From Agarophyton chilense (Eukaryota; Rhodophyta; Florideophyceae; Gracilariales; Gracilariaceae): 64,000 nt of DNA. Numbering within the stretch: the stretch's first letter is position 1; every line of letters starts with the position of its first letter. The position numbers were made by a program, and so were the translations under genes. The notes below the pieces were generated by a model. The model made no database searches. It was not told where the DNA came from and saw only the letters and a program-made list of their open reading frames with translations. The stretch lies in assembly GCA_030374765.1 (NCBI GenBank), contig JARGXX010000129.1:682001-746000 (forward strand), given 5' to 3'. Below are positions 35,857 to 64,000 of this stretch, piece by piece.

Positions 35857-36720
35857 TGAAGAGCAACGTCCTCCAGGGAGGTTCTTGGGAACTTAAGTTT
35901 TTTCCGGAGCCTCCGGCGTGCAACCTCGTTATGAGTAGGAGTAATCCGTTTCACGGCGATGGCCAGAACGCCGGTAATGCACCGGCGGGACCGGGTGCCA
36001 TACACGTGGCCGCAGCGCCCGCGCGACACGTGGCCGCCAGATTGGCCCCTTTTGTTAGACGGACATTTAGCTATTTAGGATAGACTTTATTTATTCTATT
36101 CTACGGTGACTACAGTACTTAGGCCGCCGGCCTCGCGGCCGCCGGTCCAGTAAAGTCTCCCCAACAAGGGTGATCTTGGTCTGCCAGATCTTGGCTCTGG
36201 GTCGAACCGCCTGCGCGGATATACAACTCCTTACGGAGGGATTTCCCGTGGTGCACGGCTTCGCAACCCCCTTGGACATTCAAGCAGCCTTCGTGTGTTG
36301 GGTATCTATTCCCACTTTCGTGGTTCCGCCCGTTTATACGGTTTGCTACACCCGGCAGTGCCGGCTATTCCCGAGTCTCCTCTTGCGACTCGTGGTCAAC
36401 CTCGCCCTCTTGTCTCCGTTCCCATTTTCCTTCCCTTTTCCTCCCCTTCATTGGGCAATTCCCGCTCTTGCGGCTCGCACTAACACCTGTCGTGCTCGCC
36501 ACTCTCGTGGGTTTTGCCTCCTCAGAGGATACGCGAGCACCGCTTCGGCGGATATTCATGGCTTCTTTCAGCCTCCCTGCGCCCGTCGCGACGGTTTGGC
36601 TCCGGCTTACACCCGGCATTGCGCGCCGATCCCTGGGAGGGCTCTACCGCGCCGGTTACCTCGTGAGAGGAAGATCCGGACGTCTTCGTAGGTTTTCCCC
36701 CTTGGGGGCATTGTCCTACA
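35857..36720 (+). repeat. Element 1 left (5') LTR, 864 bp
   Basis: Starts TGAAGAGCAACGTCC and ends TTGTCCTACA. It contains an inverted GC-rich motif (GGCCGCCGG...CGGCCGCCGG at ~36,121-36,148) after an AT-rich TTTATTTATTCTATTCTA block that may be the promoter core. An open frame of 173 codons on the plus strand is present in both LTRs but looks like composition only. Confidence 0.95.
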
Positions 36721-36843: not shown

Positions 36844-38955
36844 ATGCCAAGGAAACCGCCTAGCATGGAGCCTCCTGCAACACGCAGCTGTTCCCGCCAA
36901 AGCGGTGATGCCAGGGGCACTGATGTTCCACAGGCCCTGGCTCCAACACCCCATTCCCGGGAGATACCGGTCACCGGCACTGAAGACCCGCAGCCCGATT
37001 CCGGGTTAACGACCGTCGCAACGGTGGTTTCTCCGCCTCCGCGGTTGGTCGACCAAGCGCGGATTGTACGCTTGGAAGAGCAGCTCCGCTCCCTGCGAGC
37101 TGCTCACAATACCCTCTCGAGAGAATTCACCTCTTTACGAGGAAGCCTCGCTAACCCCCCTACGAGTGAGTTAGCCGAGGATATCCGCGTATTGCGGTCG
37201 GACGTCAATACACTACTCGAGTGTTTTGGCGCTCCGTCTTCCTTCGCAGAAGGTATGGAGAATCGCTTCGAGCGTCTCCGAAGCCGACTTGAGTCGGTCG
37301 AGAGGACGTTAACCTCGCCCGCGAACGCGGCTAGACCGGTTGTCTCTCATCGAGAGACCCAGTCGCGGAACCGGAAGAGCCGGAAGAACCGGGATTCTAA
37401 CCGTAAGCACGGACCCCCGTCCGACTCATCATCTGAGTCGGACGGTAAACCGAGTGACTCGGAGAGTTCCGATTCGTCGGTGAGGGATGACCCACAGGAT
37501 CGTTATGGGCGCTCTTCCCGCTCAAAGCGGTCCTCTGCCACCTACGGGGCCATCTGGTCGCGCCCCAAGGGTCGGCGACATCCGGGCCTCAAACCCTTGA
37601 AGCCCACCAACCCTCTGTACAGGACACTCCTGTCCTACCGGTATTACCGGCTAGAAGATTCCTCTTTAAGTCGGACACCGCGTGACACGGGTAAAGTGAA
37701 AGACTGCATCAAGCGGATGCAGCTTTCACTTCGTAACCAGTCGTTTACTGGGGATGATCCAATTCTGGTCTTGGATTTCCTACACCGCTTTGTAGCGGAA
37801 GCCGATATACTCGGAATGAACGAAGGACAAGCCTACGTGGCGCTACCCTACTTTCTACGGGGTGTCGCTGAAGATCAGTTTTTGTCGGTTCGGGGCTCGT
37901 CGCGAGCCTCCGAAGGAGGTGTGACCTGCTGGTCCGAGGCCGTGCAGTACCTCGTGCGTTCCTACGCAACCAACTCCGCGATACAAGCGGCAATACTCGC
38001 TTTGCGAGACACTCGACAACGCTCCGGCGAGCTCGAGACCGATTACTCGGTACGCCTGAATAAGGCTTTCCACCGTTGTGGTAATGTATACCCCGCTGGG
38101 GAACGCTGTACGATGTTCATCGATGGCTTGGATCCAGCCATCAAGACTCTTGTCGCCCGTTACAGGGAACAAGAGCCGAAGGTGACCTACCTTGAACTCG
38201 TACAGTTTGCCCGCGCAGAAGGAGATGCACTACGTGCACGCAATCCGGGAACCCGGTCAAAGGCCGCTAAAGCATTGCTGCTTGAGTCAGATTCTTCTTC
38301 ACCGTCATTTGCGACGGATGGCATCCCCAAACAGGGTTATGACAATATGAATGTCATCCATCACGATGGTTTATCTATTCCGACAACGGAATTACCGTCT
38401 ACGACGGATGGCTCGGTTGACTCAACCGCAAGGGACACGGAGAACGGGCAGGTCTTCTATCTAAATGACCGCCGCACTCCGGCCCCCCGTATGCCGTACT
38501 CAAACGGAATGACACGAAGTCAGCGCTCTGGATGGGTTGGAAACCGGGAACCCGGAAGATACACCGATGCTCGGAATGCCGTACCGCGAAACGCCGGAGT
38601 GACGTTGGTGTGCCACTTGTGCTACGAGCGCGGGCACACCTCCCCGCAATGCCTTTTATCGCTACGTGATATGGCGCGAGTGGTGGATAATTACGAAGCC
38701 CTCTCCCCGCAGGAGAAGGGCTCCGTGCCACTCACGTCATATCTCCGCGCGAAGACGGACTTCCCCAACGCATTGGCTCACACTCCGAATTCTCGGTACA
38801 AACCGGCTCAGCCGGCACGCGCCGCACCTGCGCCAAACCACGCTGGTGGATCTCAACCTGCTCCTGCGGTAGCTACCGTGCAACGGAATCATGCACTCGT
38901 TGCCGAGGAAGTCGGGCCTTCGCCCGACCAGGACCCTGTACAGGGAAAAGAATAG
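36844..38955 (+). CDS. gag: Gag polyprotein, element 1
   Basis: From the ATG at 36844 the frame is open for about 703 residues. It has a Pro-rich head, a coiled coil (about residues 75-165), a basic Arg/Lys/Ser region (NRKSRKNRDSNRK), and a retrotransposon-gag capsid domain (about 280-470). The capsid includes PILVLDFLHRFVAEADILGM, GGVTCWSEAVQYLVRSYATN and YSVRLNKAFHRCGNVY. A single CCHC zinc knuckle, CHLCYERGHTSPQC, lies near residue 590. Gag forms the virus-like particle and packages RNA. It is colinear with the gag of element 2 (capsid and knuckle both conserved), which helps fix the start. Unlike pol it has no internal stop. Confidence 0.9.
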   Translation: MPRKPPSMEPPATRSCSRQSGDARGTDVPQALAPTPHSREIPVTGTEDPQPDSGLTTVATVVSPPPRLVDQARIVRLEEQLRSLRAAHNTLSREFTSLRGSLANPPTSELAEDIRVLRSDVNTLLECFGAPSSFAEGMENRFERLRSRLESVERTLTSPANAARPVVSHRETQSRNRKSRKNRDSNRKHGPPSDSSSESDGKPSDSESSDSSVRDDPQDRYGRSSRSKRSSATYGAIWSRPKGRRHPGLKPLKPTNPLYRTLLSYRYYRLEDSSLSRTPRDTGKVKDCIKRMQLSLRNQSFTGDDPILVLDFLHRFVAEADILGMNEGQAYVALPYFLRGVAEDQFLSVRGSSRASEGGVTCWSEAVQYLVRSYATNSAIQAAILALRDTRQRSGELETDYSVRLNKAFHRCGNVYPAGERCTMFIDGLDPAIKTLVARYREQEPKVTYLELVQFARAEGDALRARNPGTRSKAAKALLLESDSSSPSFATDGIPKQGYDNMNVIHHDGLSIPTTELPSTTDGSVDSTARDTENGQVFYLNDRRTPAPRMPYSNGMTRSQRSGWVGNREPGRYTDARNAVPRNAGVTLVCHLCYERGHTSPQCLLSLRDMARVVDNYEALSPQEKGSVPLTSYLRAKTDFPNALAHTPNSRYKPAQPARAAPAPNHAGGSQPAPAVATVQRNHALVAEEVGPSPDQDPVQGKE

Positions 38956-39017: not shown

Positions 39018-42000
39018 ATGCCTCGCTCCCCGGTGAAAATCCTGACAAGGAAGGACACCGCAGACGCGGACTCTGAACACTTCGGTGTGTTGCGTCGACC
39101 GTAGATACGGATTAGAAATAACCGGATCCCGGATAGAGTCTTGGTAATGACCAAGCGTAACTACAAGGTTTACGCTGACCTTGGTCTGCACACGCAGTTT
39201 ATGGTGATACATCTCACTGTCCTGGATACTGGTGCTGGGCCGAACTTTATTGTGGAATCGGTTTTACCCCCGCCATTGCGGTCCCTCATCCGTTCTGAAA
39301 CGGTACCCGACGTGTCGGACGCCAATAACAACCCGTTGAAAACGGCTGGTGTGATCGACCTGGTCGTCAGGCTAGGGCGGATGGTGGTTAAACTAACTTT
39401 TATTGTGTGCCGCTCGCTGGCCGCGCCAGTTATACTGGGATGTGACTACTGCGACAGGTTTGTCGACGCCATCCGCCCACGCCTTAAGCAGGTGGAACTT
39501 GAGGACGGATCGACCGTCCCCATTGTTCGTCAACCGCTGAAGCGGGAATCGAGGAAGCACGTTCCTCTACCTGCTGCGCAGGAACCCACACCGGCGAACT
39601 GGGATTCTACGAAGCTACGCGTTGCCTCGTCAGTAACCATACCCCCGGAGAGCCAGGTTATGGTTTCAGTCAATTCCCGTCAACACGGTCTTCGGGTTGT
39701 TCAGCCCTTGCCCTCGTTGTACGAGAAATTTCAGTTAACCGTTGCGAACGGAATCGTGCAAGTCACGCCGAATTCCCCTTTCAGGGTGTTGGTTGCCAAT
39801 CTGGGAAAGGCTCCCCAGACGCTGGCAAAGAACGAATTCATTGGGTCTGTGACGCCGCACCCGCTCGCGATGCTCCCTACAAAGGTGACGGCTGCCGAAG
39901 TACTCGGAATAACTCCCTCTACCGAGGATGGTCTTCTGGTATCCGGTGCAGAAACCTCCGGGGAGGCACAGCAGTTGGCGCTCGATAAAACCGTCAAGAC
40001 GGATGCATTTCCGACCTCGTCGGTTCCCACACCTGACACCAGGGCATAGCCTACGAGCTACGATAAGATAGACCCGATCAAGGTCCTCGAGGACCTGGAC
40101 CTGAGTCATGTACCGGTCTAACACCGGGACCGCTTACGCGGAATGCTACGCGAGTTTACCACAATTTGGGACGGCTCACTGGGTGAGATCAATACAACCG
40201 AACATCGGATAGACTTGCTACCGGACGCACGTCCGGTTGCACAACCCCCTTACAGGGCGGGACCGAAAGCTCGGGAGGAGGAAGAATTTCAGGTGGATAA
40301 GATGCTCCGTGCTGGAGTCATCGAGCCCGCCCAATCTCCTTGGGCTTCACCGGAGGTGCTGGCCGTCAAGGCTGACGGCACGTGGCGGTTTTGTGTGGAC
40401 TACCGCCGCCTCAATGCCGTCACCGTGAGGGACACCTACCCGATTCCGCGCATGGACGAGTGTATAGACTCGCTCGGGGACGCTACCGTGTTTACGGCTC
40501 TGGATGCTAACTGGGGCTACTGGCAAGTCCCAGTCCGGGAAGAGGACCGAGACAAAACCGCGTTTGTTTGCCACTCGGGTTCCTACCGCTTCAAGCGGAT
40601 GCCGTTTGGTTTAACCAATGCACTGGCCACCTTTCAAAGGGCAATAGACATACTGATGTCGCGTTTCAAGTGGCGCACGTGCCTTGTCTACTTGGACGAC
40701 ATCATTGTCTTTTCCAGAAACCTGGACGATCACCTGACCCACGTGCGGGACGTGATGACCGTACTGCGAGACGCAGGAATAACCCTCAAGTTGAGGAAGT
40801 GCGAGTTCTTCACCGACACGGTAAAGTATCTCGGGCACGTCATCCGTCCAGGACGGTTAATGATCGAACAAGTTCGTATCAAGTCCCTCTGCGAGGCGAA
40901 GGAGCCCCGTACTCAAACGGAGCTCCGATCCTTTTTAGGTCTGTTCAAAGTCTATCGACGGTTTATACAGAGTTTCTCGGATATCGCCGCTCCGCTAAAC
41001 GCGTTACTGCGGAAGGGCCACGCAGCAAAGCTTGCGCCATTTACCACCGATCAGTCGGAATCTTTTCGCTCCTTGATTAAGGCAGTTACGACAGCTCCTT
41101 GCCCAAACCTGGGCTTCCCTACTCCATCGACACCGACGCCAGCGACCACCAGGTGGGCGGCGCACTGTTCCAAACCACCCCCGAGGGGGTACGCAAACCA
41201 ATTGGCTATTGGTCCCGCACGCTGAACGTCCACGAGCGCAACTACTCGGTCTCCGAGAAGGAGTGCCTCGCAGTGGTCTGGGCGCTATCCACTCTGCGCC
41301 CATACCTCATGGGCGTTCATTTCACCGTATACACGGACCATGCCTCGTTGAGGTGGCTGCTGAACATCGGAGATCCTTCTGGCCGCTTAATGCGGTGGCG
41401 CCTCCGCTTAGCGGAATTCGACTTCGAGGTCGTCTACAAGAAGGGTGTCCAGAACACACAAGCAGACGCCCTCTCTCGATTACCTACGACAGGTGAAGCA
41501 CTTGCCGACCCGGAGGTCGACGAGATCCCGTGCTTTACCTTGGAAGGGGAAACACCGACGGAGTCGGATTGGCCCGAAACCGGGGAAGACACCATGGAAA
41601 TGGATGAGCTACTCGCAGCGCGCGAGAATGAAACACCCGTACCCGGGACCTTTGTACCCATCTCCACCGAGGAGATGATCCGAGAACAGTTCGGCGACCC
41701 GTTCTGCACGCGCATACGGGCCCGCCTAAATGGTGGAGAGGACCTCCCGTTCGAGGTAAACGACATCGGTTACCTCGTCCGGACGGTGGACCACCGATCC
41801 CAGATCGTGGTCCCCCACACCCTGCAAACCAGGGTGCTCCACCTCTCACACTACCCGACCCTCGGGGGACACTCCGGTGGGAGAAAACTTTATCTAACCC
41901 TGCGAAGGGACTTTTATTGGCCCGCTATGGCGGTTGATTGCTACGCTACGGTGCAGTTCTGCACCCAATGCGCAAAGAACCGGGTGAAACTCCGGAAGCA

Positions 42001-44224
42001 CTCCAAACGGATGAAGCTTTTCCCCGCAAGGGCGCCCCTCGAGTTTGTCGCAATCGACATTCTCGGGCCTCTACTCAAGACGCGCAAGGGAAACAAGTTC
42101 CTCTTGGTTATCACTGACCGCTTTTCGAAGCTGGTGCGCACCGTACCTTTACGGAAGATCACCGCTTTCACGGTTGCGAACGCCTTCGTTACGCACTGGG
42201 CGTTCGTCTATGGCCCTCCGATAGAGGTTCTATCCGATAACGGTAAGCAGTTCGCCTCTAAGTTCTTTCAGGACGTCTGCCGCATCCTCGACGTCAAGAA
42301 CCTGTTTACTACCACCTACCACCCGCAAACAAACGGGCAGGTGGAACGCTTCAACCGCACCCTACCCGCGTCGCTACGCTCCTACGTATCCGATCACCCA
42401 ATGACGTGGGACATTTATTCTGATGCTATCACCTACGCCTACAACACGCAGGTTCACCAGACAAGCGGTCTGACTCCCTTCGAGCTTGTGCTCTCCAGGA
42501 CACCCCCGCCAGTGGCGGTCGAACCCCAACACAGGGTCAACTCTTTCCCATCCGTGGGTCAATACCGCCTCAAGTGGAAGAACTGGATTACCAAGCTCGT
42601 ACCGGTCGCCCGGAAGTCCATGGAACGTTCCCAGGCCGCCTACAAGCGGGATTTTGATAACCGCTTACGCGGACCACTACCGGCACCCCCCAAGCCGGGA
42701 ACCTACGTGTTCGTTCGCCGGGAGTACTACAACCCCCGGACCGACAAGCGTCACAAGCTCTCGCCTGTCGCTGAAGGTCCGTTCCGGGTCGTGTCCTCCC
42801 TCTCCGGCATCGTTGTGGTGGACAAGAACGGCGACCACGAACGTCTTTCAGAAGACCGCATCGTAGCCGCCCCACCGCTGCAGGCGGAAAACGCATCAGC
42901 CCCCGTCGAAACGGCCTCGAATACTACGAGTACAACGGTGGCACCACGCCCCGCCGTGGTACCGCACCCCTCACGGGGTCTCTCCGATATACCGACTTTA
43001 TCGGAACCACCGGCAATGCCGGAAACACCTGGCCCTCGCGGCCAGCTACCCTTACGAGCGCCGCGCAGCGGTATCTATACCCGCCATGCGGTTAGCCCAC
43101 CATCACCCGTCGCTCCGTCTAAGGAGGGGGAGGGGACCCGCTCAATCGCGGAAGCATCGCCGTCGCAACGGAAGTTTAACCGGACACCCCGGGCAAGGCC
43201 CCCGAGCGGGCATCCGGCATCGTCGCCGGACGTTACTCCGCTCCCGCGGGACGCGGCGGTCAATCCGACCGCCACGCAACCCCGAAAGGGGAACCGAGGT
43301 GCTCGAAGACCCGAAGCCGGGAAGCGAGACCCTACGGACGCTCCGCATCGCGTGGAAGCAACTAAGGGCTCCCCGCACATTCGCGGTCGCACACCGAGCG
43401 TTTCGGTCGATACCGGTACTCCGGCGGGCGCTGCGCAAGCAGGTCTAGCGAGCCACTCCGTTGGGAACGGTACGAACCCCATGGGGGAAAAGGGGCGCAA
43501 CGACAAGTCGAAAACCGCCTCCCTTGCCGAACAATCGAAGCCAACCGTCTGCGACGGCCCGACCACCCGTCCTCAAGGTCACGTGACCCGGGCGGGAGAT
43601 CGGACCAATGGGCACCTGGCATCCCGGTCATTGGCTGACAGTCACCCCGCGGAGGCGGACCGCCGGGACGGTGAACCACTCACCGCCCGCGGCGCACTGC
43701 ACGGCTGAAACTGCCCACCAATGGGAACGCCGCATGCTGCAAATCAAGCGGAGGCCTCCGGCGAACCGTCACCAAGACGGAAGGACCCCTGCCAACTCGC
43801 AGTAAGAGCGGACTTCAGGGAAGCCCCTACCGCCCAGCGGGAACACCACCCGGCCGCGCCGGCAACTTCCGCGAAGCGGTACGGCAGCCCCGGCAACCCG
43901 GCAACAACCGCAGAGCGGAATGACAAATCGGGTGACCTGGAACAGGCGACGACGAGCCCAGCACCACGCAGCGCTGAGGCTCGGGTCACCACCACCCGGC
44001 AAGGCCGGCAAGTTTACGTGCAGGAGTACGTCCTCGACCGAATCGTCGGACATAGCTACGATGGGCACGGGGTGCTCCAGTACCGGACCCGCTGGTACGG
44101 ATACGGGCCGGAGTGGGACACCCCGGAGCCCATCGAGCACCTCCCGCGCTCTGCGGTAATGCGATACCACTGCCTTGCGGGGACCGCACTCCCAGCCACG
44201 CTGGTAAACACCCAAGAGGGATAA
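39018..44224 (+). pseudogene. pol: Pol polyprotein, element 1 (disrupted)
   Basis: Reading in domain order: aspartic protease with DTGAGPN and ILGCDYCDRF (39,141-39,540); reverse transcriptase with the LYLDD-type box VYLDDIIVF (near 40,690); RNase H (VYTDHASLRWLL, near 41,330); zinc-binding HHCC integrase head (HYPTLGGHSG ... CTQCAKNRVK); integrase core (VAIDILGPLL, VLSDNGKQF, HPQTNGQVERFN); and a chromodomain (YVLDRIVGHSYDGHGVLQYR, then TRWYGYGPEWDTPEP). Disruptions are TAG at 39102, TAG at 40047, TAA at 40119, a frameshift near 41,100 between RT and RNase H, and TGA at 43706 before the chromodomain. The homologous positions in element 2 are read through, so these are lesions rather than obvious recoding sites. 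Gag lies in another frame upstream. Confidence 0.92.
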
Positions 44225-44556
44225 ACCGTGAACACGGAATGGAATGGCTGATGGCGCCACGCGCCATCTCCGTCCATGCCCCAACGCGGGGAAGGAAGCA
44301 ACCGCTCACGCTGTCCCAACCTCGTTGGTGGTCGTGCCAGTTACCTGGTCCGCGCGCGAAGCGCCCACCGTTAAACACGGGACTCCCAGCTAGGCTGGTT
44401 CCCTGCAACGCCGGAACCCCGGTTGAAGGCCGGTATCCCGGAAAAAAAGAAGTGGACTTGGGAAAGGGCGTCGGAAAGGCGACCCTCTTCTTTTATTTCT
44501 CACTACTGGCAAGGGCTCCCTACTGGCGCCGCCCTACATTCTACCGGAAGCTCCGG
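44225..44556. other. Spacer between sense pol and antisense gene, element 1
   Basis: About 330 bases between the ends of two convergent frames (pol from the left, antisense gene from the right). It should contain the antisense gene's 3' end. No ORF supported. Confidence 0.5.
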
Positions 44557-46332
44557 TCATTCCTCCGCACGAGGTGGACCCCCGCCCAGGCGGTTGGCTA
44601 AGGCACCCCGCATGGCGGCCACATCACCCGAGATCTCGGAAGGGCGAAGCCCCACCTCCCGAAGGAAGCGCGCGATGACCTCGCCCCGCTCCGCGCCAGC
44701 GACGGTTGCGGGCGGGCCCGCCACCGATGGAGTCGGATAGGAATCCGTTCGCACGGCATCAGCAGCCCCGGATGGAGCCGCACAACCGTATTCAACGGAC
44801 TCCTCACCGGCCTCGCCGGACCCGTCATCCTCCATCGGAGCGTAACCCGGATTCTCCGGTTCGTTGTCGACCATCGGGTCAGCATCCGCATATTCGCGGT
44901 AATAGTCGCTCGAGTCGACATACTCTCGCGGGTGGTCGGCCGGGACTTCACGCGGCGCATGCCGGTTGGCTTCCGCTTCCTCGCGGCTGATCTCGTGGTA
45001 CTCCCAGGGGTCGAAGTAGACGAAATCCCCCGCTAGGGCGGTATTCCTCCCGAGTCCGGGGCCAGACCCGCGACGCGGTTGAATGCGTTGGGAGTTCTCC
45101 AGCGGGACCTCATCCCACTGGACCCCCTCCACAAAGTCGAGGAGGCCCAGCATCTCTTCTTCGTTCTCCTCGCTCCCGAGGGGGATGCGCATGTCCAAAC
45201 GACGGATCGCAGCCCGCACACGCGGTGGAACGTACCACAATCGGTATTGGTCGTACGCCTCAGCGAGGATAAAAGCCGCAGTGCGGACGGCCCATTCGCT
45301 TACCACAACGGACCACCACCCCGACTGGGGATCGTTCAAGAACGACGACCCTACATAGGTGAATACTGGGGGCAGCTCAACGAAGCAACCCCAGCACGCC
45401 TCCAAGGAGGACCACCAGTCTGGAAGACTGACGTACCGACCACGTCGGTGAGCAGGCGCGATGCGCTCAATCTCCGTGTTCTGGTACGGTACGAAATACC
45501 CGGTCCGGGCCCGCCAACGCCGCTCATCGCGGATGAAGTTCTGAAGGAAGTTCGAGCGCGACTGCCGCGGTTGGTAGCGGAACTCTGCCCGAAGAATCGG
45601 TCGAGCCCAGCAAAGGGCTTCTTGCCGAGCGATCGGTGTGCCCCTCCAAGCGAGGGTTTCCAATCCGTTAAGACGGTCACAGTACGACATTTCCCCGCGA
45701 GTGCAGTAAAGGTGGACGTCGAATTCGACCTCTGGTGGTATCGGGAACTCGAAAGGCGCCCGATGGTGCCTGAGATAAGCGATCCGCACAAGCGCGGCTT
45801 GAGCCTCCGCAGAGGATTCACCGCGTCGGCGGAGTATGTGGTGTACCTGGATGGCGATACGATTACGCCAATCCCAGGACAGGGTCACCACGCCAGGCAG
45901 GTCGCCCGGGAGCGTCTCCGAATTATCGGTGTAGGATTGGATCAAATCCTCGTCGCGGACAGCCAATGGGTGAAACCAAGGCGCATACCGCAACCTCGCG
46001 GAGCCATGCCGAGTTCTCGGATTTGCACCCACAAGGGCGTCGTAGGTCGGCCACTGCGGTGGGTCCGCCTGTCCGCGAAAGCGGGCGCCAATACGGCGGT
46101 CTTCGTACGCGAGGTTGGTAACATCCCCAGGGTGGGGCGCGGACCAGAAGTCGGTGGAACCGCCAAGGGCGGGAGTCACGGATGTGTTATGACGGTCGGG
46201 GTTGGACATGGTGCGTGTTGGTGTGCTGTGGTTGGAATCGGATGCGGAGAGCGTGCGTGGGATCCTTGGTGAAGGTGTGTTGGTTTCCGGAGACCCGGTG
46301 TAGGACGCGCTCTTATCATGACGAGCTGCCAT
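44557..46332 (-). CDS. Antisense accessory gene of element 1, conserved, unknown function
   Basis: An open minus-strand frame between pol and the 3' LTR. It is open from 46446, inside the LTR; the first Met in internal sequence (MAARHDKSASYTG, 46332) gives 591 codons with the stop. The protein has a Ser/Thr/Pro-rich head, a central aromatic-rich region (APWFHPLAVRDEDLIQSY; GYFVPYQNTEIERI; GCFVELPPVFTYVGSSFLND), AGDFVYFDPW near residue 435, an acidic Glu/Asp/Tyr-rich region, and a short helical end (IARFLREVGLRPSEISGDVA). The same blocks in the same order occur in the matching position of element 2. No membrane segment, nuclease or zinc motif is evident. Antisense extra genes are known from some plant LTR retrotransposons, but I recognise no family. 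Expression would need a promoter in or near the 3' LTR. Confidence 0.8.
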   Translation of the reverse strand: MAARHDKSASYTGSPETNTPSPRIPRTLSASDSNHSTPTRTMSNPDRHNTSVTPALGGSTDFWSAPHPGDVTNLAYEDRRIGARFRGQADPPQWPTYDALVGANPRTRHGSARLRYAPWFHPLAVRDEDLIQSYTDNSETLPGDLPGVVTLSWDWRNRIAIQVHHILRRRGESSAEAQAALVRIAYLRHHRAPFEFPIPPEVEFDVHLYCTRGEMSYCDRLNGLETLAWRGTPIARQEALCWARPILRAEFRYQPRQSRSNFLQNFIRDERRWRARTGYFVPYQNTEIERIAPAHRRGRYVSLPDWWSSLEACWGCFVELPPVFTYVGSSFLNDPQSGWWSVVVSEWAVRTAAFILAEAYDQYRLWYVPPRVRAAIRRLDMRIPLGSEENEEEMLGLLDFVEGVQWDEVPLENSQRIQPRRGSGPGLGRNTALAGDFVYFDPWEYHEISREEAEANRHAPREVPADHPREYVDSSDYYREYADADPMVDNEPENPGYAPMEDDGSGEAGEESVEYGCAAPSGAADAVRTDSYPTPSVAGPPATVAGAERGEVIARFLREVGLRPSEISGDVAAMRGALANRLGGGPPRAEE

Positions 46333-46366
46333 GCTGACTTCCTCTTCGAGGTGTTCGCCCTGTCTT

Positions 46367-46379
46367 AAGGGGGGGGATA
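46367..46379 (+). other. Polypurine tract, element 1
   Basis: AAGGGGGGGGATA abuts the 3' LTR start. It is the expected plus-strand primer for reverse transcription. Confidence 0.75.
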
Positions 46380-47243
46380 TGAAGAGCAACGTCCTCCAGG
46401 GAGGTTTTTGGGGACTTAAGTTTTTTCCAGAGCCTCCGGCGTGCAACCTCGTTATGAGTAGGAGTAATCCGTTTCACGGCGATGGCCGGAACGCTGGTGA
46501 TGCACCGGCGAAACCGGGTGCCATACACGTGGCCGCAGCGCCCGCGCGACACGCGGCCGCCAGATTGGCCCCTTTTGTTAGACGGACATTTAGCTATTTA
46601 GGATAGACTTTATTTATTCTATTCTACGGTGACTACAGTACTTAGGCCGCCGGCCTCGCGGCCGCCGGTCCAGTAAAGTCTCCCCAACAAGGGTGATCTT
46701 GGTCTGCCAGATCTTGGCTCTGGGTCGAACCGCCTGCGCGGATATACAACTCCTTACGGAGGGATTTCCCGTAGTGCACGGCTTCCCAACCCCCTTGGAC
46801 ATTCAAGCAGCCTTCGTGTGTTGGGTATCTATTCCCACTTTCGTGGTTCCGCCCGTTTATACGGTTTGCTACACCCGGCAGTGCCGGCTATTCCCGAGTC
46901 TCCTCTTGCGACTCGTGGTCAACCTCGCCCTCTTGTCTCCGTTCCCATTTTCCTTCCCTTTTCCTCCCCTTCATTGGGCAATTCCCGCTCTTGCGGCTCG
47001 CACTAACACCTGTCGTGCTCGCCACTCTCGTGGGTTTTGCCTCCTCAGAGGATACGCGAGCACCGCTTCGGCGGATATTCATGGCTTCTTTCAGCCTCCC
47101 TGCGCCCGTCGCGACGGTTTGGCTCCGGCTTACACCCGGCATTGCGCGCCGATCCCTGGGAGGGCTCTACCGCGCCGGTTACCTCGTGAGAGGAAGATCC
47201 GGACGTCTTCGTAGGTTTTCCCCCTTGGGGGCATTTTCCTACA
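46380..47243 (+). repeat. Element 1 right (3') LTR, 864 bp
   Basis: Same length and ends as the left LTR (TGAAGAGC...TTTCCTACA). About 12 differences: nine lie in the first ~175 bases and all nine are transitions; the remaining ~690 bases differ at only three sites. Confidence 0.95.
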
Positions 47244-52779: not shown

Positions 52780-53179
52780 TGTAGTATCCGCTCTAACAGA
52801 GAGGGCAGACACCTGCGACAGCGTTCGGACTGCCGATGGGTCGCTTGCGGCGAAGGAAAAGGGGTGGTAGAGCTACAACACCAGCGAGCTGGAAGTGGGG
52901 TGTAAGGCCACTACTCGCCAGCGAGGGTGAACAGTGCAACTGTAAAACGTTGATGGGACGTAGGTACGAGACGGCTTGTGAAGTGGTTGGGGGCTGACTA
53001 TCTATTATAGCTCGTCCGGATCTCCGGTTAAGGAACCCTAAGCGAGGAACAGAATATTCATGATGCCCATGTTTTCTCCTTTACTTGGAGTCGGCGCTCA
53101 CCTCTGGTACACTATATACTGTGTGCCAAAGTGCGTGCCCAATTAATACGTAAATAATACCCAGTGGTCAGCCACATAG
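52780..53179 (-). repeat. Inverted LTR fragment of the element 2 family (LTR-C)
   Basis: Reverse complement of the last ~400 bp of the element 2 LTR, starting TGTAGTATCCGCTC (complement of the GCGGATACTACA end). The flank left of 52780 is not a primer site, so this is a solo or 3' LTR in minus orientation. Homology runs to CAGCCACATAG at 53179, where LTR-A of element 2 begins; the missing ~260 bp should lie beyond the nested insertion. Confidence 0.88.
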
Positions 53180-53843
53180 TGTAGTATTATACTACTTCGG
53201 CGTTCCGATGGTTTCTTTGTCGCAAAGTCGCGTTTGGAACTCATTACTGAGTGGCCTGGTCAGTGCTAGGATACGAAGCGACACACCACGTAGGATGCCA
53301 GGAGGCAGGGTACATTGTTGGAACACGTGGTATCACGAGTGGAGTGGCTTGCAACGGCGCATGTATTGGCGATCCACGTGGCTGGTTTATCTACCCTTTG
53401 TAGATGTAAGTCCATTAGGGACCATACCCATACGTGGTTTGGCTAAGTGGCTGACCACTGGGTATTATTTATATATTTATTTGGGCACTCACCCTGGTAC
53501 ACAGTATATAGTGTACCAGAGGTGAGCGCCGACTCCAAGTAAAGGAGACAACATGGGCATCATGACTATTCTGTTCCTCGCTTAGGATTCCTTAACCGGA
53601 GATCCGGACGAGCTATAATAGATAGTCAGCCCCCAACCACTTCACGAGCCGTCTCGTACTTACGTCCCATCAACGTTTTACAGTTGCACTGTTCACCCTT
53701 GCTGGCGAGTAGTGGCCTTACACCCCACTTCCATCTCGCTGGTGTTGTAGCTCTACCACCCCTTTTACTTCGCCGCAAGCGACGCATCGGCAGTCCGAAC
53801 GCTGTAGCAGGTGTCTGCTCTCTCCGTTAGAGCGGATACTACA
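53180..53843 (+). repeat. Element 2 left LTR (LTR-A), 664 bp
   Basis: Begins TGTAGTAT and ends ATACTACA, an 8-bp perfect inverted terminus. From ~53,351 to its end it is nearly identical to LTR-B; the first ~170 bp are strongly diverged from LTR-B. Confidence 0.93.
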
Positions 53844-53845
53844 AG

Positions 53846-53863
53846 TGGTCTCCAGACTTAGAA
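53846..53863 (+). other. Primer binding site, element 2
   Basis: TGGTCTCCAGACTTAGAA, two bases after LTR-A. One base differs from the 18-mer found in element 1 and after LTR-B. Confidence 0.72.
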
Positions 53864-54058
53864 CCACTGTGGTCAGCTGCACTGAACAATTCGTTCCTGG
53901 AACGTGGAATCGATATCGATACTTGGAAGAAGTGGAATCACTACAGTTATTGTTTCTCGAACCACCTCCGGCAATTGCGGAATTCATCGTGGTTGAACAC
54001 GTGGTCGAGAAGTCGAAGACACCATTTGGTTCGCATCTGGACTCAGATTTGGTCTAGG

Positions 54059-56253: not shown

Positions 56254-59200
56254 GTGCTGAGCAGGGAGAGCTCGCCTCCCTGCTCCCGCGCTTGGAAGCC
56301 CAAGATTCTCTTGAGGCCTCCCAAATTTCCGCCGTACGGAATCAATCCGCCGGACGGAAAGCGAGTACAGTTTGACTGTGAGTTACATCGTCCTTGGAGA
56401 CGTTATACTTGTCCGTCAAAACGGGAAAGTTACCTCATGGTAGTGTCTAAAAGAATCTATAAGGTCTATGCCGACATCGGCTCTGACAAGAATCTGTTAT
56501 CTCGTCGATTGACTATACTGGACACAGGTGCTGGTCCGAACTTTATACGGGAATCGGAGCTCGCTCCTGATGACTTAGAACGTATTTGATACGGTCCTTT
56601 ACCGGACATCCGGGATGCCAACAAAAATGCTGTGAAGACACTGGGAACAGTTCGACTCGTGGTGCGTTTGGGACGCTTTGTAGTCCTAGTCGACTTCATC
56701 GTCTGTATGACGTTAGCGGCACCAGTGGTACTGGGATGTGATTATTGCGACAGGTTTGTCGAAGCCATTCGCCCGCGAAGAAAACCAGTGAAACTAGATG
56801 ATGGATCAATTGTACCAATTGTTCGCAAGCCAATGCGTCGTTGCTCTGAAGCACCTCCACTTCCACCATCTATGAAATACGGTAAATCCCGAGGACGTGT
56901 CTCGCCGAGGATTCGAGTAGCGAAGAGTGCCATGCTGAAGGCGCAAACCCAAACTTGGGTTCAAGTAAGAACAGAACGACACGGACTCGTGGTAATTCAA
57001 CCGAATACTCGGATGTACGAATCCCGTGGATTGGTAGTTGCTAACGGCATTGTTCAGGTTGATCCTGGTAGCCCTTTTTGAATACTAGTGAGTAACTTCA
57101 CCGATAACGATTATCAGATACCGAAGAATCAGGTTGTTGCAACAGCTTTGCCTCATCCCATAGTGGTGGTCTCTACTCATATTTTCACTGCAGAAGTATT
57201 GGGATTAACCCATGTCGGGGACACAGACGAAGAACTGCAAACTCCGTCTGGAGATCAATTGCGAACGGCAAAGGATCCAGAGAGACTGGTCGATGAGCTA
57301 GACTTGGCACATGTGCCGGAACACTACAGAACGAAGATCAGGTCTATTGTGAAGAAGAATACATCCATGTGGAGTGGAAAACTAGGAGAGATCCCCGCTA
57401 CGGAACACCACATTGATTTGGTCCCACGGTCACGACCCATCTCCCAACCACCCTACGGAGCGGGACCGCGAACTCGCCAAATCGAGGAGGAGAATGTCAG
57501 CAAAATGCTGGAAGAAGGAGTAATCGATGCAGCTCAATCTGCTTGGGCATTACCAGTGGTGCTGGTTCCAAAACCTGATGGTTCTTTACGATTCTGTACC
57601 GATTATCGAAAACTGAACGCAGTTACAGTTCGAGATACATACCCGTTGTCTCGAATGGGCGAATGTATTGAAAGCTTAGGAGAAGAGAACGTGTTCACCA
57701 CGTTGGAGGCCAACTCTTGCTATTGGCAGGTGCCTGTAGCGGAAGAAGACCAAGATAAAACCGCATTTGCGTGTCACGCCGGTCTCTACCGTTCCAAAAG
57801 GATGCCCTTTGGCCTAACGAATGCACCGGCTACTTTCCAGCGTACTCTGGACATCTTTCTCTCAAGATACAAGTGGAAGACTTGTTTAGTCTATTTGGAC
57901 GATGTGATCATCTTTTCCCAGGATGTGGAAAGCCATTTACGGCATGTCGAGGAGATTCTCAAAGCACCACAGAGCGCAGGTATCACCTTGAAGTTCAAGA
58001 AATGCGAATGGTTCGCTGGCACCGTCCGGTACTTAGGACATGTGATAAAGCCGGGACCGCTTGCCATTCAAGAGGCCCAACCGGCGGCTCTCCGCGAAGT
58101 ACAACCTCCGTCGACACAGAAGGAATTGCGTTCTTTCCTTGTGCAACGTCTACCGACGATTTGTGCCGAGATACTCGCATATAGCGGCACCGCTCAACGC
58201 AAAGCTGCGTAAAGAACAACCAGTACAGCTGGAACAATTCAAACAAGCTGAAGTGGAAGCGTTCGACACGCTGAAGACAAAGATTATTACAGCCCCAGTC
58301 TTGGCGCTGCCCATCCCCAACCTGCCATACTCAGTGGATACCGAGTCTAGCGAGTACCAAGTAGGGTGTGCCCTTTTTCAAACACACCCTGATGGTGAAC
58401 GCAAAACCATTGGTTACTGGTCAAGATCGCTGAACGCAGCTGAGAAGAATTATTCAGTTTCAGAAAAGGAATGCCTTGCAGTCGTTTGGGCTCTAACCAC
58501 ATTGCGACCGTATCTCTAAGGAGAACGTTTTACCGTCAACACGGACCATTCGTCTCTACGATGGTTACTGTCCATTACAGACCCGTCTGGTCGTCTCACA
58601 CGATGGCGCTTACGCCTTTCTGAATTCGATTTCGAAGTGAAGTATAAGAAGGGATTGGCCAATGTCCAAGCTGACGCGCTATCGCGATTCAAAACACTGG
58701 GCGAAACCCAAGGCGAAATCGATGAAGAGATACCTTGCTTCTACATGGAGACCCATTCACCATCTTTTGAAGACGAGGAACAAGAGACCCTTGAAGATTA
58801 TTCGGATGCAGAGCCGTTCCTTGCATTAGCAGACACTGACCCTTCATTTCAACTCGAGCGAATCTCGTGCACTGAGCTCCTCAATGAGCAACACGCCGAT
58901 ACGTTTTGTGCGTCGATACGCTCTCGTCTTAACGGGGGGGAGGAGCTCCCCTTTTCACCCGATTTACGAGGAATACTGTTAAGACATGTCGAAAAGCATG
59001 ATTAAATCGTGATTCCACACGTCTTGAAAAGTGGAGTACTCCGTCTGGCACACTACAGCAGGCTGTCTGGTCATCCAGGAGGAACGAAGTTGTTCATGAC
59101 TCTAAGAAGAGATTTTTACTGGCCTACTTTGGCAATGGACTGCCATGCTACAGTGAGGTTGTGCACAACATGTGCGAAGAATCGCGTGAAGCTTTACAGG

Positions 59201-61269: not shown

Positions 61270-62952
61270 TCAAAGAGACGTGCGAGCACGCAGGTTTGCA
61301 AGAAGCTGTGCGTGATCACCCTCAACTTGGTCCACGGGAAAGCCCGCATCTAAGAGGAACTGCCTCAGCGGATCCAAGCCTGGATCTTCGACAGGCAGTG
61401 CACTCGGTTGTTGGCTAAACCCATGAAAGTTCTCTTGACCAACTCCCGCCGCTGCGGATTGATCGACGGAAGTCGCTACTCCTGCCAGCTCTGGCTCGTC
61501 CTCTTAACCGACTTCAGCCTCCGCTCCCGGCGCTTCCTCATACGGTTCCTCTCCGTTCTCGGATGGAGTAGCATCGTACACGTATCCAGTAAGCTGGTTC
61601 GGTGGCATGTCACGCGTGTTCTCCCGAAGAAAGAGAGCCTGCTCGGAAGTGATCAACTGGCGCGTCCAAGGGTCGTACCAAACGAAATCTCCAGCACTTG
61701 CTGTTCGTCCAGGAGAATGGTCGTGGTGTCTTGCACGGGTTCCGCAAGCGGATTGATCAGCTGGCACTCCAGACCAATCGACACTGTCGATCAAATCCAC
61801 AAGATGGAGGAACTCGGCATGGTTCGCACGGGATCCCAGGACAAGGGAAAGATTGAGTTCTCTCGCATACTTTCGCGCTGTGGGCGACATGTATCAAACT
61901 CTAAAGGTATCATAAGCATCCCACAGGAGAAAGACGGCTATCTTGGCGAAATACTCGGTATAAACCACCGTCCAATATCCCGTGAACGGGTCGTTAACCA
62001 ACGCGGACCAGATGTAGGAGACCGCCGGTGGGAGCTCCACAGGGAAACCACGAGGACTCTCGATCGCCGCCCAATGCTCCGGAATACCGATGTAGCGCCC
62101 GAAGCGCGCGTTCCGCCGGATGCGGTCAATCTCGATCATTTGATACGGCACCAAATAGCCCAAACGTGATCGAGTACGACGTTCCCAACGGGGATAATCC
62201 CAATAGAGAATGTCACACTTTCGAAGGATGCGGAACTCCGCATGGAGAATAGGTTGTTGAAAGCAGAGAGCTGCATCAAGCACAACGCACACAGCGCGCC
62301 AACCGCTAACATCGACTTCAACGAGTGTCTCGATATACGAGTAACCTTCACCGTTGGTACGGGCTTTCCAGGTATCTAGTTCCCAGTCCTGCGGGATGAG
62401 AACCGTACTGATGAATCGGCGAAGATGCTGGTAAATCAGCTTGGTGAACCGCGTACGGGCTTCGGACAAGGTTTCTGTTGAATATCGCGCAATCGCGTTG
62501 TCTGGCTAAGAAATATGGCTCGCCCAGTCGTCGCTATAATTCGCGTGTTCCGTAATACCGTCAGGGAAGTACCCACCGTGTACATACTGTTGTATCAACG
62601 CGTCATCGCGGATAGCAACTGGATCAAACCAGGGCGCTTGCGCGAAAAGTTCAACGTTGTCGAGAGGATCTCGCCCATAGCAATCCGCAGGGTGCGGGTA
62701 GCTCCGCTGAGCACGGCGAGAAGGAGCTCGAATCACACCCGCAGAGGCGACGTAAGCCCCGTTCGGCATCGGAGCCACGGTTGTCTGAGGTAACGGTACC
62801 GACCAGAATCCGGTGTACGGTGTGGGGAACGAACGGTATGGACCGAGTTGAGCAGTAGGCTGCGACGCATAACCAGCAGTGTTGGACGGAGCCCCATAAG
62901 GCACGCCCTCATAGGAGGGCTGGAACGGGTTGGAACCGGCGTTCGGATCCAT
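61270..62952 (-). pseudogene. Antisense accessory gene of element 2 (three nonsense codons)
   Basis: On the minus strand, starting at Met 62952 (MDPNAGSNPFQPSYEG) and ending with TGA at 61270, about 560 codons stay in a single frame with stops only at 62506 (TAG), 61894 (TGA, where element 1 has Trp) and 61504 (TAA). Blocks match element 1 in order: APWFDPVAIRDDALIQQY, GYLVPYQMIEIDRI, GFPVELPPAVSYIWSALVND, AGDFVWYDPW, and a helical end (DPLRQFLLDAGFPVDQVEGD). The head is Tyr/Pro/Gly/Ser-rich instead of Ser/Thr-rich. Keeping one frame over 1.7 kb while sense pol decays shows it was a real gene. Confidence 0.8.
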
Positions 62953-63110
62953 CGCGAGAGATCGAGCTTAAGAGCGCTGAGGAACGGAATGCTGTTGAGA
63001 ACTGTAAGAGTTGGTCGGGCGGCGAGGAATTCGTGATCACGATGAGTACCCGGAACACCGGTCCGACTGCGCATAAACGCTTCTTGCGTCCCCAATGGTT
63101 CGCGCCTAAC

Positions 63111-63120
63111 GAGGGGGGTG
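63111..63120 (+). other. Polypurine tract, element 2
   Basis: GAGGGGGGTG directly before LTR-B, matching the expected plus-strand primer. Confidence 0.7.
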
Positions 63121-63836
63121 TGTAGTATTCTACTATGTCGGGGAATCCGATAGGGTGGTTTTTCGCGAATTCGCGGTTGGAACTCATGAGTGAGTGTTAT
63201 CATTAGCATTGTGATATGAATCGGCATCCCGCATAGGATGCCTAGAGGCAAAATGTCTTAGTGGAACACCTGGCTTCATGGGTCAAGTGGCTTACCACAG
63301 CGCGCGCATAGTTGCGACCCTTCCTAGGGGAATGCCATATTGGCAACGGCGCATGTAGTGGCGATCCATGTGGCTGGTTTTACTACCGTTTGTAGAAGTA
63401 AGTTCATTAGGGACCATACTTATATAGTGGTTTGGCTAAGTGGCTGACCACTGGGTATTATTTATATATTTATTTGGGCACTCACCCTAGTACACAGTAT
63501 ATAGTGTACCAGAGGTGAGCGCCGACTCCAAGTAAAGGAGACAACATGGGCATCATGACTATTCTGTTCCTCGCTTAGGATTCCTTAACCGGAGATCCGG
63601 ACGAGCTATAATAGATAGTCAGCCCCCAACCACTTCACGAGCCGTCTCGTACTTACGTCCCATCAACGTTTTACAGTTGCACTGTTCACCCTCGCTGGCG
63701 ACTAGTGGCCTTACACCCCACTTCCAGCTCGCTGGTTTTGTAGCTCTACCACCCCTTTTACTTCGCCGCAAGCGACCCATCGGCAGTCCGAACGCTGTCG
63801 CAGGTGTCTGCTCTCTCCGTTAGAGCGGATACTACA
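63121..63836 (+). repeat. Element 2 right LTR (LTR-B), 716 bp
   Basis: Begins TGTAGTAT, ends ATACTACA. Its first ~220 bp differ strongly from LTR-A, including about 50 extra bases; its last ~490 bp are nearly identical to LTR-A. Confidence 0.92.
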
Positions 63837-64000
63837 AGTGGTCTCCCGACTTAGAACCACTGTGGTCAGCTGCACTGAACAATTCGTTCCTGGAACATGG
63901 AATCGATATCGATACTTGGAAGAAGTGGAATCACTACAGTTATTGTTTATCAAACCACCTCCGACAATTGCGGAATTCATCGTGGTTGAACACGTGGTCG
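63837..64000 (+). mobile_element. Start of a further element 2 internal region, cut by window end
   Basis: After LTR-B comes AG, the primer site TGGTCTCCCGACTTAGAA (63839-63856), then leader sequence nearly identical to that following LTR-A (53,844-54,007). The copy continues beyond the window. Confidence 0.9.

Follow-up and report, generated by a model that had tools for sequence, protein, structure and literature searches.

Why does a long open reading frame lie on the opposite strand of a Ty3/Gypsy retrotransposon, in the interval between the chromodomain and the 3' LTR, and does it encode a protein of use to the element? The question is raised by a locus in the genome of the red alga Agarophyton chilense, within a stretch of 64,000 nucleotides that was analyzed as a whole and that we call the window. 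The original prediction for this stretch proposed that two divergent chromodomain elements carry a homologous antisense gene at the same place, retained as an accessory gene with its own promoter near the 3' LTR and belonging to no described family.

Two elements with an antisense frame between chromodomain and 3' LTR

Positions 1-34000 of the window presumably hold mostly host-like genes, among them those for malate dehydrogenase, an ABC transporter, fructose-bisphosphatase, tRNA-guanine transglycosylase, a MYB factor, a PPR protein, and S-adenosylmethionine synthetase; the features of the two elements are listed in Table 1. In element 1 (family A), the frame of 591 codons that had been predicted between the chromodomain and the 3' LTR was found exactly at 44557-46332 of the minus strand, where it runs uninterrupted from the ATG to the stop, and 47 nt (46333-46379) separate its start codon from the 3' LTR. 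We take the VLDTGA motif of the open reading frame at 39147..40049 to be a protease motif. The chromodomain of element 1 scores 23.1 bits with PF00385, just below the cut-off of 25.1 bits, and it lies in the frame of the integrase ORF but after an in-frame TGA at 43706-43708, which may mean either that this copy is decaying or that the stop is regulated.

Element 2 (family B) has the homologous antisense frame at the predicted place, and the three sequence blocks that had been quoted as matching between the two elements are present and correct. The gene of element 2 is not intact, however, as it contains three in-frame stops (62506-62508, 61894-61896, and 61504-61506). Other family B copies in the genome (L037 and L038) are open over 608 codons.

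Table 1. Features of elements 1 and 2 in the window, with positions counted from its first nucleotide.
Feature	Position	Strand	Remarks
5' LTR, element 1	35857..36720	+	LTR pair match, 864 bp
gag-like ORF, element 1	36844..38955	+	703 aa; named by position; no Pfam match over cut-off
Protease-region ORF, element 1	39147..40049	+	300 aa; named by position and VLDTGA motif; no Pfam match
Reverse transcriptase ORF, element 1	40143..41225	+	RVT_1, E 6.6e-35
RNase H / integrase ORF, element 1	41309..43708	+	RT_RNaseH, Integrase_H2C2, and rve matches
Chromodomain region, element 1	43709..44221	+	chromo match at residues 107-148, PF00385 E 6.9e-5
AATAAA poly(A)-type signal	44492..44497	-	60 nt past the stop of the antisense gene
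Antisense accessory gene, element 1 (family A)	44557..46332	-	ATG 46330-46332, TGA stop 44557-44559, 591 aa
Polypurine tract, element 1 (AAGGGGGGGGA)	46367..46377	+	between antisense ATG and 3' LTR
3' LTR, element 1	46380..47243	+	864 bp; 98.6% identical to 5' LTR; likely seat of the antisense promoter, judged from anatomy
CACGTG palindrome in 3' LTR, element 1	46526..46531	.	147 nt from LTR edge
5' LTR, element 2	53179..54007	+	edges approximate; two matching pieces
Reverse transcriptase fragment, element 2	57367..58212	+	PF00078 E 4.9e-33
Homologous antisense gene, element 2 (family B)	61270..62967	-	broken by 3 in-frame stops
Polypurine-tract-like stretch, element 2	63109..63119	+
3' LTR mate, element 2	63120-64000		runs to the end of the window

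The antisense gene has many copies and at least five families

A search of the genome (79.8 Mb in 135 contigs) returned the accessory gene at no fewer than 316 distinct places, chosen from 499 rows after repeat-looking rows had been left out; this count is a lower bound because only the best candidates are scored, although equal scores in some of the rows may point to recent duplications or to duplicates created in assembly. Family A accounts for at least 74 places at 92-100% identity, 49 of which were without a stop when counted by eye. At least 68 places were found with query P0007 (family B) and at least 75 with query P0005 (family C), and queries P0004, P0008, and P0006 gave further places, including those of families D and E. 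In 34 of 65 loci, a frame containing the RAEF motif was open over 400 codons or more, and these frames form five clusters, families A to E, with lengths of 591, 608, 618, 637, and 622 amino acids, respectively, and protein identities between families of 31-51%. Two more divergent antisense copies, L072 and L071, showed 54% identity to family A and 45% to family D over the matched part.

The position of the antisense gene, in the interval from the chromodomain to the 3' LTR, is shared by no fewer than five families within this genome. Among the 150 chromodomain matches listed, 23 lay no more than 2.5 kb from a listed accessory place, and in all 23 cases the two were arranged tail-to-tail on opposite strands; for the other 127, no accessory place was among those listed within this distance. 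Six further chromodomain loci were fetched, and the antisense gene was found in three of them (L071, L072, and L075), while no accessory gene was seen within 4 kb around the chromodomain match of L070, L073, and L074. Judging by its sequence, L073 is presumably not an element but a host gene. L070 has, next to its chromodomain match and on the other strand, gag- and protease-like sequences of an element resembling family C, probably as a result of a nested or neighboring insertion.

Two further arrangements were seen among these loci. In L067, some 0.9 kb of inserted sequence interrupts the 5' LTR of a family D element (952-1071 and 1987-2665), and at G000:C68:3138181-3158347 three family A accessory genes with equal scores are spaced exactly 9,197 bases apart, which suggests a tandem array of elements.

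Constraint acts on the minus-strand protein

When one open copy of each of the five families was compared, leaving out the broken copy of element 2, the minus-strand gene frame reached the top score in all ten family pairs (231-549 bits). The claim that the plus-strand frames do not align proved too strong in general, as opposite-strand frames of the five representatives showed similarities of up to 300 bits, which are explained by the shadow matches that homologous DNA gives. These frames contain 3-30 stops each and stay below the gene frame in every pair, and a plus-strand frame was therefore rejected as the conserved one. In addition, divergence at third codon positions of the minus frame exceeded that at each of the other two positions by a factor of 1.3-1.9 in all ten family pairs.

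Between families, dN/dS was 0.24 (A-D), 0.18 (A-E), 0.25 (D-E), 0.32 (C-D), and 0.27 (C-E), values that are rough because dS in these five pairs (1.78-2.77) is near saturation; in the other five pairs, dS was infinite and dN 0.68-0.78. Copies of the same family gave a different picture. For 18 copies of family A, dN/dS was 0.63 for shared changes and 0.64 for single-copy changes, as compared with 0.64-1.27 in five control frames, one of which also gave 0.64 for single-copy changes. Within families B, C, D, and E, 29 of 34 pairs gave 0.53-0.90 and the remaining five 0.91-1.86. The within-family copies were the best-scoring rows, and 10 of the 18 family A copies had been picked for their lack of stops, so these ratios are weak evidence and biased downwards. 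The proposed dN/dS test on copies of the same genome thus had a divided outcome: recent copies within families are near neutral and say little, whereas the comparison between families clearly shows constraint. Our data show that the accessory gene is kept by purifying selection between families, and 44557-46332 is a real protein-coding gene that lies antisense in Ty3/Gypsy elements.

The gene descends with the element

Identities between families were 0.52-0.73 for pol and 0.31-0.51 for the accessory protein, and the two sets of values correlate with r = 0.82, which was reached by 3 of 120 label permutations in a Mantel test. Family B has the longest branch in the five-row trees of both pol and the accessory protein; the pol tree is without a supported inner branch, and in the accessory tree A, D, and E form a group at 100/99. 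As the similarity of the accessory proteins follows that of pol, and as the gene is found at the same place in five families, it is shown to descend with the element. The accessory protein diverges faster than pol, with dN of 0.45-0.78 versus 0.20-0.44 and a ratio of 1.7-2.7 pair by pair.

The protein and its relatives

Three protein searches, in each of which about 8,000 candidates were scored, listed 18 different proteins as matches; these lists are incomplete, as one of them omitted P0007 although it belonged to the query itself. Eleven of these carry an organism name, from Gracilariopsis chorda (3), Gracilaria domingensis (1), and Agarophyton chilense (7), and all eleven named homologues among the matches listed thus belong to the Gracilariaceae (Rhodophyta). 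One of these searches, run against 5.8 billion proteins, gave eight homologues with E values from 4.4e-50 to 4.5e-200, a similarity far above what chance would yield. The results also suggest that annotated "hypothetical proteins" of Gracilariaceae, such as BWQ96_03215, may be retrotransposon genes. No match to the antisense protein was found in Pfam, NCBIfam, PDB, or the fold libraries, and BFVD gave no fold match at E 0.001; viral_contigs (one pattern match) and the prokaryotic search (20 pattern matches) yielded no relative. Together with its presence in five families, this supports the view of a retained accessory gene of chromodomain elements that belongs to no described family.

Pfam scans of the antisense protein found neither a DNA-binding domain nor a match to bZIP families. 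TRP28 (PF04195) was without a match in 15 family members at E up to 1, and a relationship to TRP28 was rejected on this ground; a PF04195 search of the genome gave no match either, but as its controls were equally without a match, it is uninformative by itself. The possibility that the protein is the gag-like, protease-region, or integrase ORF turned round was likewise rejected, with hhalign probabilities of 0.05-1.06%.

The first full-length structure model had a pLDDT of 56.4, and a PDB search with it was unproductive; the best model of the core reached a pLDDT of 73.6 and a pTM of 0.71. The predicted layout comprises a disordered start rich in serine, threonine, and proline, an arginine-rich and mostly helical core, and an acidic tail, at whose C-terminal end a short conserved helical part is predicted. 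The core contains 29-42 arginines and 0-5 lysines, and the tail has a net charge of -10 to -22. No clustered basic stretch was found in the five families except for one RRRR in family E. The usual Kyte-Doolittle threshold for transmembrane segments is 1.6, and the highest 19-residue mean was 0.93-1.33 across the five families, whose proteins thus contain no membrane segment by this measure.

Candidate signals for antisense expression

LTR edges were obtained by matching the 5' and 3' LTRs of one element each of families A, C, D, and E, and are approximate for family B. The antisense ATG lies 47 nt (A), about 23 nt (B, L037), 79 nt (C), 59 nt (D), and 37 nt (E) from the LTR, and in other family D copies it is placed 24 nt further out; in one copy per family, a polypurine tract was found between the ATG and the LTR. 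As this leaves almost no room outside the LTR, transcription most likely starts inside it, and we consider an antisense promoter in the 3' LTR most likely. The proposal of a promoter near the 3' LTR is therefore strongly suggested by the anatomy of five families, with start codons some 20-80 nt from the LTR. The palindrome CACGTG was present in the LTR of all five families (one copy each) at a distance of 139-257 nt from the edge, as compared with 16 of 169 internal windows of 400 nt, and is a candidate for an orientation-free promoter element.

Downstream of the gene, AATAAA is found 52-84 nt past the stop in six of seven family A copies, in five of five family B copies, and in the one family D copy with enough flank, the two other D loci having only 64-65 nt of flank past the stop; the background was 195 of 6682 windows of 150 nt. 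The seventh family A copy has ATTAAA instead. In families C (0 of 2) and E (0 of 3), neither AATAAA nor ATTAAA occurs in the 129-150 nt seen past the stop. Copies of these two families (L039, L040, L044, and L059) share AATAGTAAA at a similar distance past the accessory stop, perhaps as a variant poly(A) signal.

Possible role of the antisense protein

We propose that the gene is an accessory gene of Gracilariaceae chromoviruses that is transcribed from a 3'-LTR promoter and encodes a nuclear, element-encoded regulator, and we give this view as a whole a probability of about 0.5. As judged from the anatomy, an inward-reading promoter in the 3' LTR would give rise to an antisense mRNA that runs through the polypurine tract and then the protein-coding frame. 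In families A, B, and D at least, a poly(A) signal would terminate this mRNA before it reaches the chromodomain. The protein would then bind nucleic acid or host factors in the nucleus and thereby tune the expression or replication of its own element. A nuclear regulator of this kind, as the function of the protein, is a tentative assignment that we hold at somewhat less than even odds, and the fold searches gave nothing that points to a regulator.

The faster divergence of the accessory protein than of pol could also indicate that the protein does not control the element itself but counters host silencing or defense directed against it. Fast divergence is common in host-facing proteins, and the confinement of the named homologues among the matches listed to one algal family fits such a function as well. 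Nevertheless, rapid change would equally be anticipated for an accessory protein of any kind whose ends are disordered, and we regard a counter-defense function as unlikely, if worth keeping in mind.

The interval between pol and the 3' LTR is also the place of env-like genes, as described in the part of the literature available to us (PMC7264820), and the protein could be structural, acting in the particle or between cells much as an env-like product would, albeit encoded on the opposite strand. This seems rather improbable, as there is no membrane segment in the five families and no similarity to the gag-like, protease-region, or integrase ORFs of the element, and as the antisense orientation implies that there is no translation from the genomic RNA. 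An env-like protein in the strict sense was rejected, given that the gene is not in sense orientation and has no transmembrane segment.

One may further ask whether a host gene has been captured and is carried as cargo without use to the element. A transduction origin of extra ORFs has reportedly been raised in the abstract of PMC7264820. Transduction as a source of extra ORFs is discussed in the available text of PMC11963269. Against this, the three protein searches listed no host homologue among their matches (about 8,000 candidates scored in each), and one place and one orientation have been kept in divergent families, with dN/dS of 0.18-0.32 where it is finite, which makes passive cargo quite improbable. 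The antisense RNA itself might be the functional product, as a silencing or self-limiting RNA to which the protein would be secondary, and non-coding antisense RNAs are known from micropia and TART according to the accessible portion of one source (PMC7264820); however, the protein constraint between families requires a working protein, and an RNA function is accordingly very improbable. That the open frame is just the shadow cast by a conserved gene on the plus strand, or by base composition, for which the weaker opposite-frame similarity and the GC-richness of the gene region (0.625) might speak, is a negligible option in view of the stops and lower scores of the opposite-strand frames and the variability of the minus-frame third positions.

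Returning to the nuclear regulator, a more far-reaching version would be a red-algal chromovirus clade with a bidirectional LTR and a dedicated antisense regulator of unseen fold. This regulator would be an independent counterpart of HBZ and the principal gene controlling, in trans, the elements that abound in Gracilariaceae genomes. We consider this extension possible but doubtful. If it were true, every element and every solo LTR would send antisense transcripts into the neighboring host DNA, since the LTRs are near-identical. Gracilaria-type algae are farmed, and RNA data exist for them. They have also been sequenced, as the accessible part of one genome paper documents (PMC5970526), and being both farmed and sequenced, they make transcription testable soon.

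Comparison with known systems

The carriers of the antisense gene resemble chromoviruses in the order of reverse transcriptase, RNase H, and integrase, in the chromodomain after the integrase, and in their LTRs and polypurine tract; they differ from them in the extra antisense gene. The three pol domains lie on one strand in families A, C, and D (B was scanned for reverse transcriptase only and E for the integrase frame only), the 23 chromodomain matches beside accessory genes all exceed the cut-off that element 1 misses, and paired LTRs and a polypurine tract are present. The genome of Gracilariopsis lemaneiformis contains 17.04% LTR retrotransposons, including Gypsy elements, and the portion of the genome paper at hand mentions no extra gene (PMC5970526). 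The open-licence literature searched yielded no account of an antisense gene in elements of red algae, and the available parts of that literature contain no mention of one in algal chromoviruses.

LTR retrotransposons of plants and some retroviruses are known to have antisense genes, whose function is called an open question in the text available to us (PMC7264820). For HTLV, the same excerpts describe an antisense gene located close to the 3' LTR and driven by a promoter within that LTR (PMC7264820). The gene studied here is like HBZ of the deltaretrovirus HTLV-1 in its antisense position near the 3' LTR and would, as its anatomy suggests, also be like it in the LTR promoter. HBZ-type deltaretroviral antisense proteins are basic leucine zippers, and in contrast to them, the red-algal protein has no bZIP match in Pfam scans. 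It is also different in being encoded by a separate frame of 591-645 amino acids downstream of the chromodomain, with the start codon a few tens of nucleotides inside the LTR edge.

The closest parallel is provided by the antisense aORF-3R of plant elements, for which the available passages name Grande gene23, RIRE2, Retand ORF4, and PvRetro13 (PMC7264820; PMC11963269); some of the products are nuclear or contain TRP28, and their function is open (PMC7264820, as far as accessible). So far as these passages allow a comparison, the red-algal gene shares with the plant genes the orientation antisense to gag-pol, the interval between pol and 3' LTR, and the many copies (PMC7264820; PMC11963269). 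It differs from them, by domain content and description, in lacking TRP28 (PF04195) or another Pfam domain and in its red-algal host. Retand is described, in the parts seen, as a non-chromovirus, whereas the carrier here is a chromovirus. The accessory gene family is thus undescribed so far as our literature and library searches go, and the arrangement itself is already known. An antisense protein without known domains that is kept in at least five element families of one red-algal genome would be a separate case of this same arrangement.
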